From: Flavobacteriaceae bacterium
Lineage (GTDB): Bacteria; Bacteroidota; Bacteroidia; Flavobacteriales; Flavobacteriaceae
NCBI GenBank assembly: GCA_009886755.1
Contig: QXYU01000021.1
Location: 281-35,477 of the forward strand
Length of the DNA: 35,197 nt
Direction: 5' to 3'
The notes under the pieces are model-generated. The model was not told the DNA's origin. It was given only the letters and a program-made list of their open reading frames with translations, and made no database searches. The first letter of the stretch is position 1, and the number at the start of each line of letters is the position of its first letter. Of the stretch, positions 11,051-19,046 are shown in pieces. A program made the translations under genes and the position numbers.

Positions 11051-12511
11051 TTAGTCGGTGTTAGAAAATATTTGTTTGGCGATTTCGTAATCGTTGAAAG
11101 GGATTTTTTTTCCTTTAATTTCTTGATAGGCTTCGTGACCTTTTCCAGCAATCAACACAATGTCATTGGGCTGAGAAAACTGAAAAGCCGCTTGAATGGC
11201 TTCCTTTCGGTCTTCTATCACAAGGGTTTTCTTATATGCCTCTGGTGCAACTCCAGCTCGCATTTCATCTAAAATTTGTCGAGGGTCTTCTCCACGAGGA
11301 TTGTCAGAAGTGAAAATAACTTGGTTGCTTTTTTGAGCAGCTATATGTCCCATTTGAGGGCGTTTTTCTTGATCTCTATTCCCACCACATCCCACAACGG
11401 TAATCAATGTTTCGTTTTTGGTTCGAATCTCATTGATTGTCTCCAAGGTGCTTGCCAAAGCATCCGGGGTATGTGCATAATCCACAATCACATAGCGATT
11501 ATCCGCTGCTGTATATACTTGAAATCGTCCTGGAACCGATTGCAATTGACTAATGGCACTCAAACTATCCAAAGCATCCAACTCCAATAGATCTGCCACT
11601 GCAAAAACCGCTACGAGATTGGAAGCATTAAAGCGACCAACCAAGGTGGTCCACACCTCAGTTCCTTGAATCTTCAAAAGCATCCCTCCAAATTGTTGCT
11701 CCAAAATCTGTAGGGGGTAGTCTGCATAGTTTTGGAGTGCATAAGTATGCTTTTTAGCCTTACAGTTCTGCACCATTACAATGCCGTTTTTATCGTCTGC
11801 ATTGATCAAGGCAAATGCCTGTTTGGGCAACTGATCAAAGAATTTCTTTTTAGTGTCGCGGTAGGCCGCAAAGGTTTTATGATAATCAAGGTGATCATGG
11901 GTCAAGTTGGTGAAAACACCTCCTGCAAAGGTGATACCTGCAATACGATCTTGCGCTATTCCGTGAGAGGAAACCTCCATGAAACAATGTGCAATTCCCG
12001 CCGCACGCATTTGCGAAAAATGCTCTTGAATCTCCAATGGATCTGGTGTGGTATGCGTTGCTTGTTTTACCGTAGTGCCATAGCAAACTTTAACGGTGGA
12101 CAGCAAGCCCGTAGGATACCCCAACGACTCAAAAAGCTCATACAGCATACTGGCTACGGATGTTTTTCCATTGGTACCTGTTACCCCAACCACTTTAATA
12201 TCTTGGGATGGATTTCCATAAAAATTAGATGCCATAATCCCCAAGGCTTCATGGCTATTGGAAACCTCCAAATAAGTACATTGAGAAACCCTTGATTTGG
12301 GAAGCTTTTCACAAAGAACAGCAATAGCTCCACGCTCAATAGCAGAGGATATATAGTCGTGTCCATCTACGCTTTCTCCCTCCAATGCCACAAAAAGAGT
12401 TTGAGGAGTTACTTTTCGCGAATCGAACGCCAATGAAGCAATCTGCAACTGCAAGTCTCCAGACACAGATTCCAAGGATACTTTATACAACAAATCCTGA
12501 AGTGCTATCAT
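11051..12511 (-). CDS. murE: UDP-MurNAc-tripeptide ligase MurE (meso-DAP type)
   Basis: Adds the third residue of the stem peptide. The P-loop GTNGKT is at 112-117. The specificity motif DNPR at 403-406 is the form found in enzymes that use meso-diaminopimelate, so the peptidoglycan is predicted to be of the mDAP type, which agrees with the mpl gene in the same window. Length 486 aa is normal. Its start overlaps the ftsI stop by 4 bases (ATGA). Confidence 0.97.
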
Positions 12512-14481
12512 GAAAGTTCGATTAGGATTTGTTTGGTTTGATTGGCGGGTGTTCCTGCTTGGATCGATTGACGAACCACTATACCTTTTCCTTTAGACTT
12601 GAGTTTAATTCCTATTTTTTTAGCTACTTCTTCAGCTTCTTTTCGGGTCATCCCGACTAAATCAGGAATGGCTTGTCCCTCCGATTTCTGATCCAAAGCA
12701 AAAAGTTCTTGACTACTGATATGGACTTCCTTTGGAGTACTAGTATATATTTTCATTGCGATGGTTTTAAATACCGGAGCCGCTACGGTTGCTCCGTAAT
12801 ACCCCTTTCTTTTGTTGGGTTTATGAATCACCACAATACAGGAATACTTAGGTGCATTCGCAGGAAAATACCCAACAAAACTTGAGACATACTGCATATT
12901 GTCCGTGGCGTAATCCACCTGAGAGGTTCCAGTTTTTCCAGCCATTAAGAGCGTTTCGTCCTTGATTCGGTAGCCTGTACCCCATTTTTTATCAACCACA
13001 TTAAACATCATCTGTTGTACTTTTTCCACCGTAGCTTTTGAGCAAATAGCAGGATTCAAAACCTCCTTGTGAAATACCTTTTCGGGACGGTTCCCCAAAC
13101 GACTGATTTGTTTCAAAAACTTAGGCTTAACCATCTCCCCTCCATTGGCAATGGCATTATAGAAACTCAGTGTTTGAAGCGGGGTCAAAGTCACTCCATA
13201 ACCGTAAGCCATCCAAGGTAATTCCAATCCATCCCAAGACGTATCTGTTGGATACGGGATTTTTGGTTTGGCTTCCCCTTTAATAGAAATTCCTAAAGGC
13301 TTATTTAGCCCCATATTATAAAGGCGGTCTACAAATTTTTTGGGGTTGTTTTTGTAATTATCATAAATGATTTTTACCATTCCAGTATTGGAAGAAACCT
13401 CAAAAACTTTTCCTGCCGTAAGCGTACCATAACCGCCTCGTTTGGAGTCTCGGACTTTATGTTTATTGTAAAATGTGAGTTCTCCTTTTCCTGTCTTAAT
13501 CCAATCGTTTACATCAACGACCCCGTCTTCTAAGGCCGCGATCATTCCCATTAGCTTAAAAGTAGACCCCGGTTCGTGAGCTTCTCCAACGGCATAGTTT
13601 AGTTTTTCGTAATAAGTTCCCTTTTTTGTCCGTCCTAAATTGACAATCGCTTTGACATCCCCCGTATTCGTCTCCATAACCACAACCGTTCCATGGTCTG
13701 CTTCATAAGACTCTAACTGCTGCAATAAAGCTTTATGTGCAATATCTTGGATGTTGACATTGATGGTGGTGTGCAAATCATACCCCTCTGTTGGTTCTTT
13801 TTCATTGCTATCATTGATTGGCTTCCACTGTCCATTGGCAATTTTCTGCTTCAGGCGCCGTCCAGACTCTCCTTTTAAATAGTGTCCAAAAGCCCCCTCC
13901 AAACCAACACGCAGATAAAACCCAGAGCGATCGCGTTGCTCATAGCCCACGGTTCGTTCTGCTACTTTTCCCAAAGGATGCTCCCGAACCAATTGTTGTT
14001 CAACGATCAACCCTCCTTTGTATAAAGGCAAATTAAAAATGGGTAAAGCTTTGATGGCCTGAAACTCAGAATAGGTCAGATTTTTTCCGATTAAAAAATA
14101 GCGACTCTTTTGAGTACGCGCATTTTGCAGACTTTTTAGATAATAGCTTTTGGAATGTCCTCTCAAAATCGCCAAGGAAGCTGCTAATTCTTGTTTGTTT
14201 TCCTCAAATAGCGACTTGGACACAACCATTGCGTCCCAACGAAGTTCATAACGGGGTACTGTAGTCGCCAAAATACTCCCATCATCAGCATAAATATTCC
14301 CACGACTAGCCTCCAACACAACACTTTTGAGCGTACTAGCTTCTAACTTTGAGGTGTAAAAATCTCCCTGTACCCATTGAATATAGAACAACTTCCCAAC
14401 CAAAGTCAAAGCAAACAACAGCAGTCCTATCGCCATAAAATAGACGCGATACATGATTTTAGTTTGTGAAGTGTTTTCCAT
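12508..14481 (-). CDS. ftsI: Septal peptidoglycan transpeptidase FtsI (class B PBP) with PASTA domain
   Basis: Class B penicillin-binding protein that cross-links septal peptidoglycan with FtsW. It has one N-terminal membrane anchor (about residues 12-34) and a dimerisation/pedestal domain starting near RGNIYADDGSILA. The transpeptidase domain has S306-xx-K309 (STFK, catalytic Ser), S363-x-N365 (SSN) and KTGTS at 516-520. A single C-terminal PASTA domain (about 600-657) begins IPDLVGMTRKEAEEVA. Length is 657 aa, against 588 in E. coli; the surplus is largely the PASTA domain. It lies 1 base after the ftsL-like gene and overlaps murE by 4. Confidence 0.96.
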   Translation of the reverse strand: MENTSQTKIMYRVYFMAIGLLLFALTLVGKLFYIQWVQGDFYTSKLEASTLKSVVLEASRGNIYADDGSILATTVPRYELRWDAMVVSKSLFEENKQELAASLAILRGHSKSYYLKSLQNARTQKSRYFLIGKNLTYSEFQAIKALPIFNLPLYKGGLIVEQQLVREHPLGKVAERTVGYEQRDRSGFYLRVGLEGAFGHYLKGESGRRLKQKIANGQWKPINDSNEKEPTEGYDLHTTINVNIQDIAHKALLQQLESYEADHGTVVVMETNTGDVKAIVNLGRTKKGTYYEKLNYAVGEAHEPGSTFKLMGMIAALEDGVVDVNDWIKTGKGELTFYNKHKVRDSKRGGYGTLTAGKVFEVSSNTGMVKIIYDNYKNNPKKFVDRLYNMGLNKPLGISIKGEAKPKIPYPTDTSWDGLELPWMAYGYGVTLTPLQTLSFYNAIANGGEMVKPKFLKQISRLGNRPEKVFHKEVLNPAICSKATVEKVQQMMFNVVDKKWGTGYRIKDETLLMAGKTGTSQVDYATDNMQYVSSFVGYFPANAPKYSCIVVIHKPNKRKGYYGATVAAPVFKTIAMKIYTSTPKEVHISSQELFALDQKSEGQAIPDLVGMTRKEAEEVAKKIGIKLKSKGKGIVVRQSIQAGTPANQTKQILIELS

Positions 14482-14482
14482 C

Positions 14483-14788
14483 TTAGTCTATAATTATTTT
14501 CACTGGTGGCTCCTGAGAAGGCTTTACTCCTTTTTGTTCTAAAACAGCTGCTACTTTGGTTTCCATTTTTAGTCGCATGAGGTCGGAGCGGTTCTCCACA
14601 AATTGACTCTTCAACGCCTTTAATTCCTCATTCAATTGAGCGATTTTGAAAATTTTGCGATCTGCACGATGCCCGCTTTCAATCATAATCATCGCTAATA
14701 GAGATAAAGTAAAAATGAGTCTCCAGTTTCGAAGCCCGCCCTCTTTAAGCAGAAACTCCATATTTAGAAATGCAAGGATCTGTTTCAT
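14483..14788 (-). CDS. FtsL-like cell division protein
   Basis: A 101-residue protein with the FtsL layout: a short cytoplasmic N-terminus, one membrane segment (about residues 23-38, WRLIFTLSLLAMIMIE) and a coiled-coil periplasmic part (AQLNEELKALKSQFVENRSD). FtsL partners with FtsB-like proteins and regulates FtsWI. Sequence similarity within the family is low, so the call rests on topology, size and the slot between rsmH and ftsI, where ftsL lies in most dcw clusters. Its start overlaps the rsmH stop by 4 bases. Confidence 0.82.
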   Translation of the reverse strand: MKQILAFLNMEFLLKEGGLRNWRLIFTLSLLAMIMIESGHRADRKIFKIAQLNEELKALKSQFVENRSDLMRLKMETKVAAVLEQKGVKPSQEPPVKIIID

Positions 14789-15687
14789 AGTTTTTTTGCA
14801 ATTCGCATTTTAGCACTGCGTGCACGGTTATTTATTGCTATCTCTTCCTCGTCTGGCAACACCAGTCCTCCTACCTTTTTAAAAGGGCATTCTTTGTTGC
14901 CATAAAAATCCACAGCTGCCGTCCCTTCGAATTGTCCTTCCCGAATAAACCGTTTCACCAAACGATCTTCTAAAGAGTGATAGGAAATGCAAACCAATCG
15001 TCCCCCAGGAATTAATACTTCGACTGACTGTTCCAAAAATTGCTTCAAGACTTCCAATTCTTGATTAACCTCAATACGGATAGCTTGAAACACTTGAGCT
15101 AAGATTTTATTAAGAAAACGCTCCGGCACCAATCCAGCTACTAGATCACGAAGCTGCTTTGTCGTGTGAATAGATTGGTCTTCCCGTTGTTTTACAACAG
15201 TCGAAGCTATTTTGTGTGCGTTACGGACTTCTCCATAGGCCTTAAAAATACTGACCAACTGCGGTTCCGAATAGGTGTTCACTATTGATGCCGCACTGAT
15301 CTCTTGACGTGTATTCATTCGCATATCCAATGGCCCTTCGAAACGCGTCGAAAAACCACGGGCATCACTATCAAACTGATGCGAGGAAACCCCAAAATCT
15401 GCCAAAATCCCATGGACTTGGGTAACCCCTTTGAATCTGAGGTATTGCTTTAAAAAAGAAAAATTAACTGGAATTAAATCAAATCTAGGATCCTCTAGTG
15501 CATTGGCTTGTGCATCGGAATCTTGATCAAAACCATACAGTTTTCCATCCGCATCCAGTTGATCCAAAATGGCTTTTGAGTGGCCACCTCCTCCAAAAGT
15601 AACATCCACATAAACACCGGAAGGATTGATTGCCAACCCCTGAATAGCCTCATCTAGCAAAACCGGTTTATGATAGGTCATTGTCAT
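14785..15687 (-). CDS. rsmH: 16S rRNA m4C1402 methyltransferase RsmH
   Basis: SAM-dependent methyltransferase acting on N4 of C1402 in 16S rRNA. The start region YHKPVLLDEAIQGL is followed by the SAM loop VDVTFGGGGHSKAIL (about 28-42). Further landmarks are GILADFGVSSHQFD and, later, GGRLVCISYHSLEDRLVKRF. Length 300 aa is typical. ATG codons at 15687 and 15681 are both possible; the second starts MTYHKPVLL and is closer to the family. Either one overlaps the mraZ end (20 or 14 bases). Confidence 0.96.
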   Translation of the reverse strand: MTMTYHKPVLLDEAIQGLAINPSGVYVDVTFGGGGHSKAILDQLDADGKLYGFDQDSDAQANALEDPRFDLIPVNFSFLKQYLRFKGVTQVHGILADFGVSSHQFDSDARGFSTRFEGPLDMRMNTRQEISAASIVNTYSEPQLVSIFKAYGEVRNAHKIASTVVKQREDQSIHTTKQLRDLVAGLVPERFLNKILAQVFQAIRIEVNQELEVLKQFLEQSVEVLIPGGRLVCISYHSLEDRLVKRFIREGQFEGTAAVDFYGNKECPFKKVGGLVLPDEEEIAINNRARSAKMRIAKKL

Positions 15688-16135
15688 CTTGATCTCCCAT
15701 TACTTCTTCGGCCAATGCCCCAAAATCCAATGTGGCAGCATCAATAGCAGCTTCGTACTGGTCCTTATCCCAAATCTCTAGAATATTAACCGCAGAAGAA
15801 ACCACCACTTCTTTTTGGATACTGGCATGAACCAGTAAATCCTTAGGTATCAGCAAACGCCCAGAAGCGTCCACTTCAACAATCTTTACTCCCGCCGTAA
15901 AACGACGAATGAAGTCTATATTCTTTTTATTAAATCGATTGAGCTTGTTGACCTTGGTCATCAACTGTTCCCATTCCTGCATCGGGTAAAGCTCAAGGCA
16001 ACTATTGAACACAGCGCGCTTCAAAACAAAGCCTTTGCTGACAACTGCCGACAACTGCTTTTTTAATGCCACTGGGATCATGATACGACCCTTGGCATCC
16101 GCTTTACATTCATATGTTCCTATAAAATGCTGCAT
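15668..16135 (-). CDS. mraZ: Transcriptional regulator MraZ
   Basis: First gene of the dcw operon and its DNA-binding regulator in other bacteria. It has two tandem AbrB/SpoVT-like half-domains, visible as KADAKGRIMIPVALKKQL (about 12-29) and VEVDASGRLLIPKDLLVHA (about 91-109). Together they make the double swapped-hairpin fold that assembles into a ring. Length 155 aa is usual. The ATG at 16135 is about 45 bases from a repeat array with the spacing expected of MraZ operators, so autoregulation is likely. Confidence 0.97.
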   Translation of the reverse strand: MQHFIGTYECKADAKGRIMIPVALKKQLSAVVSKGFVLKRAVFNSCLELYPMQEWEQLMTKVNKLNRFNKKNIDFIRRFTAGVKIVEVDASGRLLIPKDLLVHASIQKEVVVSSAVNILEIWDKDQYEAAIDAATLDFGALAEEVMGDQDDNDLS

Positions 16136-16161: not shown

Positions 16162-16169
16162 CAAAAATA
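16162..16169 (-). promoter_or_regulatory. Probable -7 element of the mraZ/dcw promoter
   Basis: TATTTTTG on the - strand matches TANNTTTG and lies 26 bases before the mraZ ATG. I see no good TTTG at the ideal -33 distance; that region is occupied by the GTGGTAA repeats, which fits a promoter governed by a bound regulator. Confidence 0.5.
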
Positions 16170-16177
16170 AAAATTAA

Positions 16178-16225
16178 TTACCACAATTTACCACTATTTA
16201 CCACTTTGTTAATAACTTTTACCAC
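16178..16225 (-). promoter_or_regulatory. MraZ-box operator array (four GTGGTAA repeats)
   Basis: TTACCAC occurs on the + strand at 16178, 16188, 16198 and 16219, read as GTGGTAA toward mraZ. The first three are exactly 10 bp apart and the fourth is 21 bp further, so all four lie on nearly the same helix face. MraZ proteins of other bacteria bind short G-rich direct repeats with 10-bp spacing in front of their own gene. Position just upstream of the -7 element suggests repression of the dcw operon. The identity of the binder is inferred. Confidence 0.65.
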
Positions 16226-16280: not shown

Positions 16281-16288
16281 TATATTTG
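16281..16288 (+). promoter_or_regulatory. -7 element of the hydrolase-engB promoter
   Basis: TATATTTG matches TANNTTTG exactly, 23 bases before the hydrolase ATG. The -33 region is weak. The element is divergent from the dcw promoter, and the repeat array lies between the two start sites, so one regulator could affect both. Confidence 0.5.
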
Positions 16289-16311: not shown

Positions 16312-17076
16312 ATGAAAAATCAAATCATTAAAAAAAGCGGCTATCGATATGTGGCCGAAGGCATTGGGCAACCCATAATCATCCTACATGGATTGATGGG
16401 AGGGCTCAGCAATTTCGAAGGGGTCTTTTCATACTTCACGAATCACAACTATCGCGTTATCATTCCCGAACTCCCCGTTTATGACCGCCCTCTCTTGAAA
16501 ACAACAGTGAAAGCGTTTGCTGAATATTTGCACGGGTTTATCGAATTTATGGAACTCAAAGATGTTGTTTTACTAGGGAATTCACTTGGTGGACACATCG
16601 GGCTTCTCTACACTAAGCTGCATCCAGAAATGGTCAAAGGACTCATTATCACTGGAAGTTCTGGGCTTTATGAAAATTCTATGGGAGATGGTTATCCAAA
16701 GCGTGGTGACTATCAATATATCAAATCCAAAAGCGAAGAAGTATTCTACGACTCCAAGGTGGCAACTAAAGAGATTGTTGATGAAGTGTTTGAAACCGTA
16801 AACGACCGCAACAAGCTCGTTAAAACTTTGGCGATAGCGAAAAGCGCCATTCGCCACAATATGTCCAAAGACCTTCCTAATATGGATACACCTACGGCTA
16901 TTATTTGGGGCGAACAAGACATTGTGACACCGCCCAACGTTGCTGAGGAATTTCATAAACTTCTCCCCAACTCCACTTTATATTGGATCGACAAGTGTGG
17001 TCATGCACCTATGATGGAGCACCCAGACCGCTTTAACGAAATCGTCATTGAGTGGTTTCAAAATAGCCAAATCTAG
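16312..17076 (+). CDS. Alpha/beta fold hydrolase
   Basis: A 254-residue alpha/beta hydrolase. The oxyanion region ILHGLMGGLSNF is at 24-35. The nucleophile elbow GNSLGG gives Ser91, followed by the acid Asp203 in WGEQDIVTPP and the base His231 in KCGHAPMMEHP, so the triad looks complete. There is no signal peptide, so it is cytoplasmic. Substrate cannot be read from the sequence; the family includes esterases, lipases and C-C bond hydrolases. engB follows after 6 bases, so the two are probably co-transcribed, and the pair is divergent from mraZ. Confidence 0.88.
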   Translation: MKNQIIKKSGYRYVAEGIGQPIIILHGLMGGLSNFEGVFSYFTNHNYRVIIPELPVYDRPLLKTTVKAFAEYLHGFIEFMELKDVVLLGNSLGGHIGLLYTKLHPEMVKGLIITGSSGLYENSMGDGYPKRGDYQYIKSKSEEVFYDSKVATKEIVDEVFETVNDRNKLVKTLAIAKSAIRHNMSKDLPNMDTPTAIIWGEQDIVTPPNVAEEFHKLLPNSTLYWIDKCGHAPMMEHPDRFNEIVIEWFQNSQI

Positions 17077-17082
17077 ACTATC

Positions 17083-17691
17083 ATGCAGATCGAGTCTGCC
17101 CAATTCACAATAAGTAATACAGACATACAAAAATGCCCTTCTGGCAACCGTCCTGAATTTGCTTTTATCGGACGATCTAATGTTGGGAAATCATCGCTGA
17201 TCAATGCACTTTGCAATCAAAAAAGACTGGCAAAAACTTCATCAAGACCGGGAAAAACACAGCTTATCAATCATTTCCTTATCAATGAGCAATGGTTTTT
17301 GGTGGATCTACCAGGCTATGGGTACGCCCGAGTTTCCAAAACACAAAAAAAGAAATTTCAGGCCTATATAGAAACGTATTTCCGAGAACGTAGTCAACTT
17401 GTTCTTGCCTTTGTACTACTTGATATACGCCATCCTGCTCAGCCTATAGATTTAGAATTCATCGCTTGGTTAGGATCACAACAGATTCCTTTCTACCTCA
17501 TCTTCACCAAAGCAGACAAACTGAAACCCAAAGCTATTGAACGGCAAGTCACCGCCTATACAGAAGCATTACAGGAAGACTGGGAAGAAGTGCCTCCCTA
17601 TTTTATTACCTCAGCGACAAGCAAAGAAGGTCTGGAGTCTGTAACCAATGCTATCGGTGACATTTTACAGGCTTTATCTGCCACACAATAA
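17083..17691 (+). CDS. engB: Ribosome biogenesis GTPase EngB (YihA/YsxC)
   Basis: TRAFAC-class GTPase needed for large ribosomal subunit assembly. G1 GRSNVGKSS is at 30-38, switch I includes SSRPGKTQ (53-60), G3 DLPGYGYA begins at 75, G4 TKAD is at 142-145, and a TSATSKEGL segment near 176 supplies G5. Length 202 aa is typical. Its stop (17689-17691) is only 2 bases from the gldC stop on the other strand, leaving no room for a separate terminator between the convergent genes. Confidence 0.97.
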   Translation: MQIESAQFTISNTDIQKCPSGNRPEFAFIGRSNVGKSSLINALCNQKRLAKTSSRPGKTQLINHFLINEQWFLVDLPGYGYARVSKTQKKKFQAYIETYFRERSQLVLAFVLLDIRHPAQPIDLEFIAWLGSQQIPFYLIFTKADKLKPKAIERQVTAYTEALQEDWEEVPPYFITSATSKEGLESVTNAIGDILQALSATQ

Positions 17692-17693
17692 GA

Positions 17694-18026
17694 CTATTTA
17701 ATATTTAACTTCTCCGCAAAGAACGCGGCAAAGTCTTCAAATCCCTGAGCCATTTTTTCGTCCTGAGTCGCTCGAAAATACGTTTCTCCCATCGTCACCA
17801 AACTTTGATGAAAGAACCGCTGCATCTGATCCACAGGCATATCTTTGACCCATAAATCCATCCGAAGCGTTTCTTGGGTCTCCCCGTCCCAAAGAGAAAG
17901 AAGCATCGCCTTAGCAGTCGCCTGCTCGATCCCACCGTCAGGAGCTGACCATTCTAATGTTTCTGGAATTTTATTTTCATCGAGCCCTACTTCTATCGTA
18001 ATGGGCGATTGTTTGCTTATGGCCAT
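17694..18026 (-). CDS. gldC: Gliding motility protein GldC
   Basis: A 110-residue soluble protein without a signal peptide that matches GldC of Bacteroidota, recognisable by the start IEVGLDENKIPETLEWSAPD and the central QATAKAMLLSLWD. In Flavobacterium it supports gliding motility, possibly by stabilising GldB, but is not absolutely required. The molecular role is unknown. It directly follows gldB (stop and ATG adjacent), the usual gldB-gldC pair. The gene alone does not prove the organism glides. Confidence 0.9.
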   Translation of the reverse strand: MAISKQSPITIEVGLDENKIPETLEWSAPDGGIEQATAKAMLLSLWDGETQETLRMDLWVKDMPVDQMQRFFHQSLVTMGETYFRATQDEKMAQGFEDFAAFFAEKLNIK

Positions 18027-19046
18027 TTATCTAGTGGGTTTGTAATTGGATTGTTGGAATATAGTGAGTGCCGGAAGGGCTAAAATTTCAGGATAGGTAT
18101 AGTCAGGGTTTTTTGCGCAAAATGCTTTGACAATTTCAGTACCCAGCCATACCCCAATCTGCCCGGGGGTTTGATTATCAATTTCCAGATAAAACTTAGA
18201 AAAAGGAGCTGGGGCTAAAAAACGTTGTATGAGTGATGGGTCGGTGCTATACAGCAACTGTTTTTCGATAAAATATTGCCAAATATACTTCTGATTTTCT
18301 TGTGTCCACTTTAGCTGCTCCTCTGAATAACCAAAGCGTATCGCTTCTGAAACATGGGGCACAAGGAGTGATTTCAAGTATTCAATTTTACCAAAATAAA
18401 TCAGCTGAGCCAAAAACGTTCTATTAGCAGGGGGAGCCAATTGGGTTTCTACAAATTTTTCCGCCACATGAGAGGTCAAATAGGCTACATCCATTTGCTG
18501 TCGGATATAGTTTGGAATCCCTTCGTATAAAGGATGTTGTTTCCCGAGATAGGTGTCCAGTGAAATAATCAAAAGGCTATCGGCATAAATACTTTTGCTT
18601 TGATAGTCCACGTTATTGATCAGTCCAATGGTGTGTGGGCTGGGAGTTGCTGGAAAATAGTATTGGATATGTTTGAACAAATGACTCAAATCCGACTCCA
18701 AGCTTTCCATCTTGGGGAATTTTTCATCAACAGCCTTTTGCAACAAAAGTTGAAGGCTGTCTTTTTGACGCTTGATCCAAACACTATCTGTAAATTGTTG
18801 TGGAAATAGAAAAGGATATTTTTCTTTGAGTTCTGGGATTTGATCGGGTGTTGCTTCATGGAATTTTCGATCGAAACGATCAATCGAAATCGAAACGGGA
18901 ATCGCTTTAATTTCGGCTTTAATTGCATCTGGGTTTTTACAAGAAAACCCAAAAAAAAGAACAATCGCCAAAAGTCCCTTCCTAGGGAACTGTTTTATTA
19001 TTCTAGAAATTGAGAAGCACATTCTTTTTAAAATATTAAAGCCCAT
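18027..19046 (-). CDS. gldB: Gliding motility lipoprotein GldB
   Basis: A 339-residue lipoprotein. A basic N-terminus is followed by a hydrophobic segment (about 24-34) and the lipobox FGFSC with acceptor Cys36. The mature part has GldB landmarks such as SIDRFDRKFHEA and YPFLFPQQFTDSVW. GldB is needed for gliding in Flavobacterium and is also kept in many non-gliding members of the phylum, so it has a broader cell-envelope role. An in-frame ATG at 19022 would shorten the n-region by 8 residues and is equally possible. It is co-directional with gldC. Confidence 0.9.
   Translation of the reverse strand: MGFNILKRMCFSISRIIKQFPRKGLLAIVLFFGFSCKNPDAIKAEIKAIPVSISIDRFDRKFHEATPDQIPELKEKYPFLFPQQFTDSVWIKRQKDSLQLLLQKAVDEKFPKMESLESDLSHLFKHIQYYFPATPSPHTIGLINNVDYQSKSIYADSLLIISLDTYLGKQHPLYEGIPNYIRQQMDVAYLTSHVAEKFVETQLAPPANRTFLAQLIYFGKIEYLKSLLVPHVSEAIRFGYSEEQLKWTQENQKYIWQYFIEKQLLYSTDPSLIQRFLAPAPFSKFYLEIDNQTPGQIGVWLGTEIVKAFCAKNPDYTYPEILALPALTIFQQSNYKPTR

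Follow-up and report, generated by a model that had tools for sequence, protein, structure and literature searches.

The window, by which we mean the whole stretch of DNA that was analysed, comprises 35,197 nt of a Flavobacteriaceae bacterium (GCA_009886755.1, QXYU01000021.1, positions 281 to 35,477, forward strand). The region studied here separates mraZ from a divergent pair of genes, encoding an alpha/beta hydrolase and a GTPase of the PF01926 family which we take to be EngB, the name also used in an earlier note on this DNA. The genes and the promoter features between them are as follows.

11051..15687, minus strand: first dcw genes after mraZ, namely rsmH (mraW; PF01795), an FtsL-like gene (PF19579), a transpeptidase with PASTA (PF00905/PF03793) and a Mur ligase (PF08245)
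15668..16135, minus strand: mraZ, which opens the dcw cluster; its 155-aa product has two MraZ domains (PF02381 over the cut-off)
16162..16169, minus strand: TATTTTTG, putative -7 promoter element of mraZ (TAnnTTTG), between the array and mraZ
16178..16184, minus strand: GTGGTAA, putative MraZ repeat closest to mraZ, from the sequence and from column conservation in the family
16188..16194, minus strand: GTGGTAA, middle putative MraZ repeat, on the same grounds
16198..16204, minus strand: GTGGTAA, distal repeat of the conserved triplet, on the same grounds
16206..16215, minus strand: DnaA-box-like element TTATTAACAA, adjoining the array and containing the 9-mer TTATTAACA (16215-16207)
16219..16225, minus strand: optional fourth GTGGTAA copy, from the sequence
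16281..16288, plus strand: TATATTTG, candidate -7 element for transcription of the divergent hydrolase-engB pair, proposed from the sequence
16312..17076, plus strand: alpha/beta hydrolase (PF00561), a divergent neighbour in relatives too
17083..17691, plus strand: EngB-type GTPase (PF01926)

The nearest solved structures to the mraZ product by sequence are MraZ chains (1n0e, 9qlg, 9sx6 and 9qlr). Read towards mraZ, the intergenic order is GTGGTAAAAG TTATTAACAA A GTGGTAAATA GTGGTAAATT GTGGTAATTA ATTTT TATTTTTG, the last of these being a TAnnTTTG motif which we take to be a Bacteroidota-type -7 element. If transcription of mraZ starts at ~16156, which is our own estimate, the three proximal repeats lie at roughly -22 to -48, over the -33 region, and TTATTAACA at about -51 to -59. 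On the other side, engB is adjoined by gldC-/gldB-type gliding-motility genes (window 17694-19046; PF19937, PF25594).

The GTGGTAA array upstream of mraZ

Conservation was studied in 174 of 181 mraZ upstream regions, after omission of L001 and L002, which share their place with L003, of four duplicates and of L140, in which no start codon was identified. The 106 family-level regions, i.e. the best 30 of 117 matches in 120 genomes plus the best 80 of 225 GTDB relatives, minus four duplicates, are biased to near relatives and include the window itself; one of them (L029) is only 86 bp long. The 68 class-level regions (L120-L189 minus L140 and L188, a repeat of L163's genome) consist of the 30 best-scoring ones and of others chosen to spread over families among the matches listed (184 of 197 genomes matched), and comprise two of the window's family and one of its order.

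The earlier note had reported TTACCAC on the plus strand at 16178, 16188, 16198 and 16219, with spacings of 10, 10 and 21 bp, and these coordinates proved exact; the position it gave for the array, directly 5′ of TATTTTTG, holds for the three proximal copies. The 7-mer by itself shows no clear enrichment in the window (6 copies against 3.1 expected, with 9 of 100 shuffles reaching 6), which is the one point in favour of a repeat arisen by chance in AT-rich intergenic DNA. The significance of the array therefore derives from its phasing and conservation rather than from the bare 7-mer count. Three GTGG at an exact 10-bp period are present in 104 of the 106 family regions (the window's own included) and in 38 of the 68 class regions, 63 of which have at least two GTGG in 10-bp phase; three phased GTGG never appeared in dinucleotide shuffles (20 per region, all family and class regions). 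Divergent members of the family agree, with at least two phased GTGG in 9/9 usable regions (10 fetched). The GTGG columns are 99-100% conserved among the family regions and are mostly followed by TA, and in 106/106 the third copy is soon followed by TAnnTTTG, a match that was favoured by the way the regions were anchored. With phase, place and promoter context conserved, and with the shuffles devoid of such arrays, chance is refuted as an explanation and its probability is negligible.

In the window's own genome, two GTGGTA units at a 10-bp period occur only at mraZ, and a wider MraZ regulon, considered but set aside, would rest on seven matches to GTGGNANNNNGTGGNA (two at mraZ, five elsewhere with weaker units) against two for the control. 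The sequence features of a MraZ box, direct GTG-core repeats at a 10-bp period and conservation alongside mraZ in relatives, are found here. Such a pattern is the signature of an operator overlapping the promoter, and this array is very probably the MraZ operator.

According to the earlier note, the array would be a flavobacterial version of the MraZ box, its core differing from those of E. coli and mollicutes. A conserved array of MraZ-box type does precede mraZ, but the separate core does not survive comparison: E. coli K-12 reads GTGGGAAATT GTGGGGCAAA GTGGGAATAA before mraZ, a GTGG unit (GTGGGAA) with an equal period, which rules out a distinct flavobacterial core. Since E. coli K-12 carries GTGG at a 10-bp period, the window array is regarded as made of the ordinary MraZ unit. 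The MraZ box of E. coli, reportedly described by Eraso et al. 2014 (cited in PMC8475190), resembles that of the window in its GTGG unit, its 10-bp direct repeat, its three clear copies and its place ahead of mraZ-rsmH. Both arrays differ in their relation to the promoter: those of E. coli and Burkholderia are located downstream of the -10 element, according to PMC7761207, and that of the window upstream of the -7 element. Binding of MraZ to direct repeats ahead of its own operon is described for E. coli and mycoplasmas in PMC8475190, where the mollicute repeats before mraZ are given as AAAGTG[T/G] and are said to have no counterpart elsewhere in the genome of M. genitalium. Judged by its letters, the mollicute form is compatible with a GTGG-type unit read from the preceding As. 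Like the window array, it consists of direct repeats sharing GTG before mraZ; unlike it, the window and its family have a nearly invariant GTGG, then mostly TA. That a repeated GTG is common to B. subtilis, E. coli and mycoplasmas has already been published (PMC7761207). The MraZ part of our findings is confirmatory: it adds Bacteroidota to the known range of the MraZ box, which is located here upstream rather than downstream of the promoter element; within the literature searched (titles, beginnings of abstracts and passages), we found no description of a Bacteroidota MraZ box or of a DnaA box at mraZ.

As to function, the three GTGGTAA repeats lie on one helix face, and a ring of MraZ subunits would read successive repeats; MraZ bound in this way would block RNA polymerase and mraZ would repress its own operon. 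Autorepression is the likeliest outcome by analogy, binding and direction being taken from E. coli and Mycoplasma genitalium (PMC8475190) and the operator from conservation. Because MraZ of mycoplasmas has been called an activator, according to PMC7761207, its action here may be of either sign.

Another suggestion of the earlier note was that the fourth copy could let MraZ control the divergent hydrolase-engB unit. This copy is real where present, being found in 30 of the 106 family regions against 0-5 at four control offsets, and the window shares it with the three relatives nearest to it (L033-L035); the divergent arrangement itself is conserved in 102/106 family loci, the other four being loci with less than 1500 bp of upstream flank. 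All this would suit co-regulation, but 30/106 and, at class level, 2/68 regions is poor retention, and the copy is 55 bp away from TATATTTG. We see in it an optional extra which nothing ties to engB, and consider MraZ control of the divergent unit through it very improbable.

A DnaA-box-like element adjoining the array

The 21-bp gap between copies 3 and 4, overlooked in the earlier note, is filled by TTATTAACAA (16215-16206, minus strand), and elements of this type are conserved more widely than the fourth copy. Of the 106 family regions, 105 have a TTWTYMACA no more than 45 bp away from the array on its 5′ side, as do 57 of the 68 at class level, the shuffle means being 5 and 2.5, respectively. 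It is absent from one family and 11 class regions, the latter including one of the window's family with an Ala-type DnaA (G244, L151). Inspection by eye of nine divergent family members revealed TTATYAACA in seven, TGTGGATAA, which is TTATCCACA reversed, in another and TTATAAACA in the last. TTWTNCACA, the DnaA consensus in its exact form, is present in 19/68 class regions (1.15 expected) and in 1/106 family regions (2.75 expected); the window 9-mer TTATTAACA departs from it by an A at position 6. The E. coli repeats have no TTWTNMACA nearby; within the 334 bp ahead of mraZ the sole match is TTTTCCACA, ~190 bp upstream of the repeats.

Forms with A at position 6 (A6) have precedents. The DnaA box consensus is TTATnCACA (PMC11511705), and in Mycoplasma hominis and two relatives TTATTAACA has been named as a putative DnaA box (PMC2751442). 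For an origin of Cyanothece, PMC4674748 gives TTATCAACA as a predicted box, within an oligonucleotide made for EMSA, and TT(T/A)TCAACA has been proposed as a mollicute motif, one doubted by its authors for phytoplasmas (PMC3322544). The element shares with the DnaA box and these A6 variants (mycoplasmas, phytoplasmas, Cyanothece) the 9-mer TTWTYMACA, and part of the class has the exact canonical form. It differs from known boxes in that the family has mostly A at position 6 and in that the sites are at promoters, with no origin cluster found.

The box is in forward orientation in 103/106 family and 41/68 class regions, and in reverse in 4 and 18, respectively. Its reverse form, TGTGGAWAA, resembles the MraZ repeat, and reverse boxes were for this reason considered as extra MraZ repeats. 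This candidate was rejected: in the class reverse boxes GTGG is mostly out of the register of the array (usual offsets -13, -15, -25 to -27 and -35 to -37), and array copies almost never read TGTGGAWAA (3/318 in the family, 0/204 in the class). Three family regions are excepted, as their reverse boxes, at -21, coincide with the place of the fourth copy and may be MraZ repeats.

The same box at other genes and the search for an origin

Two copies of TTATYAACA separated by 2-31 bp were found in 54 of 60 family genomes; such pairs number 103, and those of the reversed pattern 16 (our own sums). Among 50 paired-box loci, 23 are located before HU, 12 before dnaB, one before nrdB and 14 elsewhere, HU and dnaB having been called by short protein motifs, with a Pfam check of one HU (PF00216), one DnaB (PF00772) and NrdB (PF00268). 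Among the 30 loci listed by the search itself there are 18 HU, three dnaB and nine others; the other 20 were hand-picked, partly for their look, so that the share of dnaB in the whole set is inflated. The start-to-start spacing is 20-21 bp in all HU and dnaB pairs, and a GTGG pair was found near none of the 50 loci examined.

These pairs bear on the simplest alternative, an operator for MraZ only, in which TTWTYMACA would be a further component of the MraZ site or a UP-like, promoter-enhancing stretch of AT-rich DNA. Such a role would fit an AT-rich element that adjoins the array in most of the regions viewed, and UP elements act at the position where it sits. It fits poorly with a 9-mer paired before HU and dnaB with no GTGG pair nearby, with an orientation and a distance that differ among families, and with four f20 regions which keep the element though the first GTGG copy is gone. 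We therefore hold a MraZ-only operator to be distinctly unlikely, and the adjoining element to be probably an independent, replication-linked site.

The window's own genome has no TTATYAACA pair, and TTATYAACAA is not enriched (26 sites against 22 for the control); of ten sites inspected, three are intergenic and seven in open frames, as chance predicts. Its dnaB has one TTATCAACA ~86 bp ahead of the start.

No shared replication origin emerged from any of the candidates considered, namely triple boxes, the rpe region, the region upstream of dnaA and a pair of TTATCCACA in C24. Three direct TTATYAACA boxes occur in 7 of 120 family genomes with no shared place, and so no origin with these boxes was found. 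In genome G089, five TTATCCACA and one TTTTCAACA are clustered between a YpdA-like gene and rpe (L377:1424-1548; genes named by eye), which, from its sequence, looks like a candidate replication origin with canonical boxes; such boxes may thus serve origins in Flavobacteriaceae. A similar TTATCCACA cluster was absent from 30 rpe loci of other genomes (58 genomes with rpe). In the window's own genome TTATCCACA is not enriched (21 against 35 for the control). The two copies in C24 are 764 bp apart, and the window genome's own dnaA is preceded, ~108 bp upstream, by one TTTTTCACA (L192:3760-3768), a box with C at position 6 (C6) in a genome with an Ala-type DnaA.

DnaA residue 435 and a proposed composite operator

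Residue 435 of E. coli DnaA is described as base-contacting, in helix 5, and variation at 435/438/439 has been proposed to alter box recognition (PMC5043019). The DnaA of the window's genome reads DHATV, i.e. it has Ala at E. coli position 435. For comparison of this residue with the mraZ-side box, DnaA was obtained from 65 of the 68 class genomes and boxes were accepted within 60 bp rather than 45. The A6 form is found in 34 genomes with Ala and 4 with Ser/Thr, the C6 form in 1 and 15, respectively, and the box is absent in 11/65 (1 Ala, 10 Ser/Thr). The association of A6 or C6 with Ala or Ser/Thr has a Fisher p of 6e-9 with genomes treated as independent though related; when each family-state combination is counted once the figures are 18:3 and 1:10 (p 4e-5, kinship likewise ignored). 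The dnaB side offered 64 usable loci out of 65, two of them with a truncated upstream region, and the most upstream ATG was taken as the start. Here A6:C6 is 21:2 among the 37 genomes with Ala and 9:16 among the 27 with Ser/Thr (p 8e-5 with sites as the unit, kinship ignored). A box within 350 bp was absent there in 17/37 Ala genomes (including the two with a truncated upstream region) and 10/27 Ser/Thr genomes, counts made without a shuffle control. On a tree built from pieces of MraZ and DnaB, the DnaA state changes four times, two of these changes being forced by supported branches, and a phylogenetic pair test had too few independent pairs (2 and 1) for a decision. Since the association is confounded by clade, with four DnaA changes and few pairs, it is suggestive only that the sixth base of the box follows residue 435.

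If the element is replication-linked, its ligand may be a protein other than DnaA, i.e. another replication- or cell-cycle-linked regulator of mraZ, HU, dnaB and perhaps nrd. The set of genes would suit any cell-cycle regulator, the family genomes yielded no origin-type cluster of TTATYAACA, and the TTATCCACA cluster of G089 together with TTTTTCACA before the window's own dnaA suggests that DnaA may still read C6. On the other hand, such a regulator would leave unaccounted for the exact DnaA boxes found at this very place in the class regions, mostly in genomes with Ser/Thr at 435, and an A6 form found mostly where DnaA has Ala. We regard another regulator as rather unlikely, and lean, if slightly, towards DnaA as the protein that would bind the adjoining element.

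The reading that we prefer, with a probability of about 0.58, is that the dcw promoter carries a composite operator, made of the MraZ array and a probable DnaA box. From the anatomy and conservation of the promoter and from the box before HU and dnaB, which are observed, we infer that TTATTAACA, which borders the array on its 5′ side, most likely serves these bacteria as a DnaA box. DnaA bound there would increase or decrease dcw transcription depending on the state of replication, both binding and sign being part of the inference; DnaA at this place could touch MraZ or compete with it. A broader proposal, which we hold to be less likely than not, is that DnaA of Bacteroidia directly co-controls the dcw cluster, HU and dnaB, in the first case through the box adjoining the MraZ operator, its recognition having shifted between C6 and A6 with Ser/Thr and Ala at 435 and an entire replication-division regulon having been rewritten. 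The coupling of replication and division in Bacteroidota has, to our knowledge, been little studied, and this promoter may read both processes. If this is true, a MraZ operator beside a DnaA-type box, kept across much of the class, and the boxes at HU and dnaB would constitute a concrete, testable regulon.

Some details of individual loci may be added. In five family loci (L260, L261, L262, L266 and L278; site at 1500) the paired boxes, 20 bp apart, lie ~130-140 bp before a 90-aa HU-family ORF and are mostly followed by a TTTCCCTTG...TATAAATTTG-like promoter. The dnaB-side pairs end about 30-80 bp before the dnaB ORF in family genomes (L279, L292-L294, L296-L301). Two TTATCAACA, 12 bp apart, are located ~176 bp before the gene for the small subunit of ribonucleotide reductase (L307, G023), and in the window's own genome TTATTAACAA is also found 65 bp before recA (L427, 0-based offset 997).
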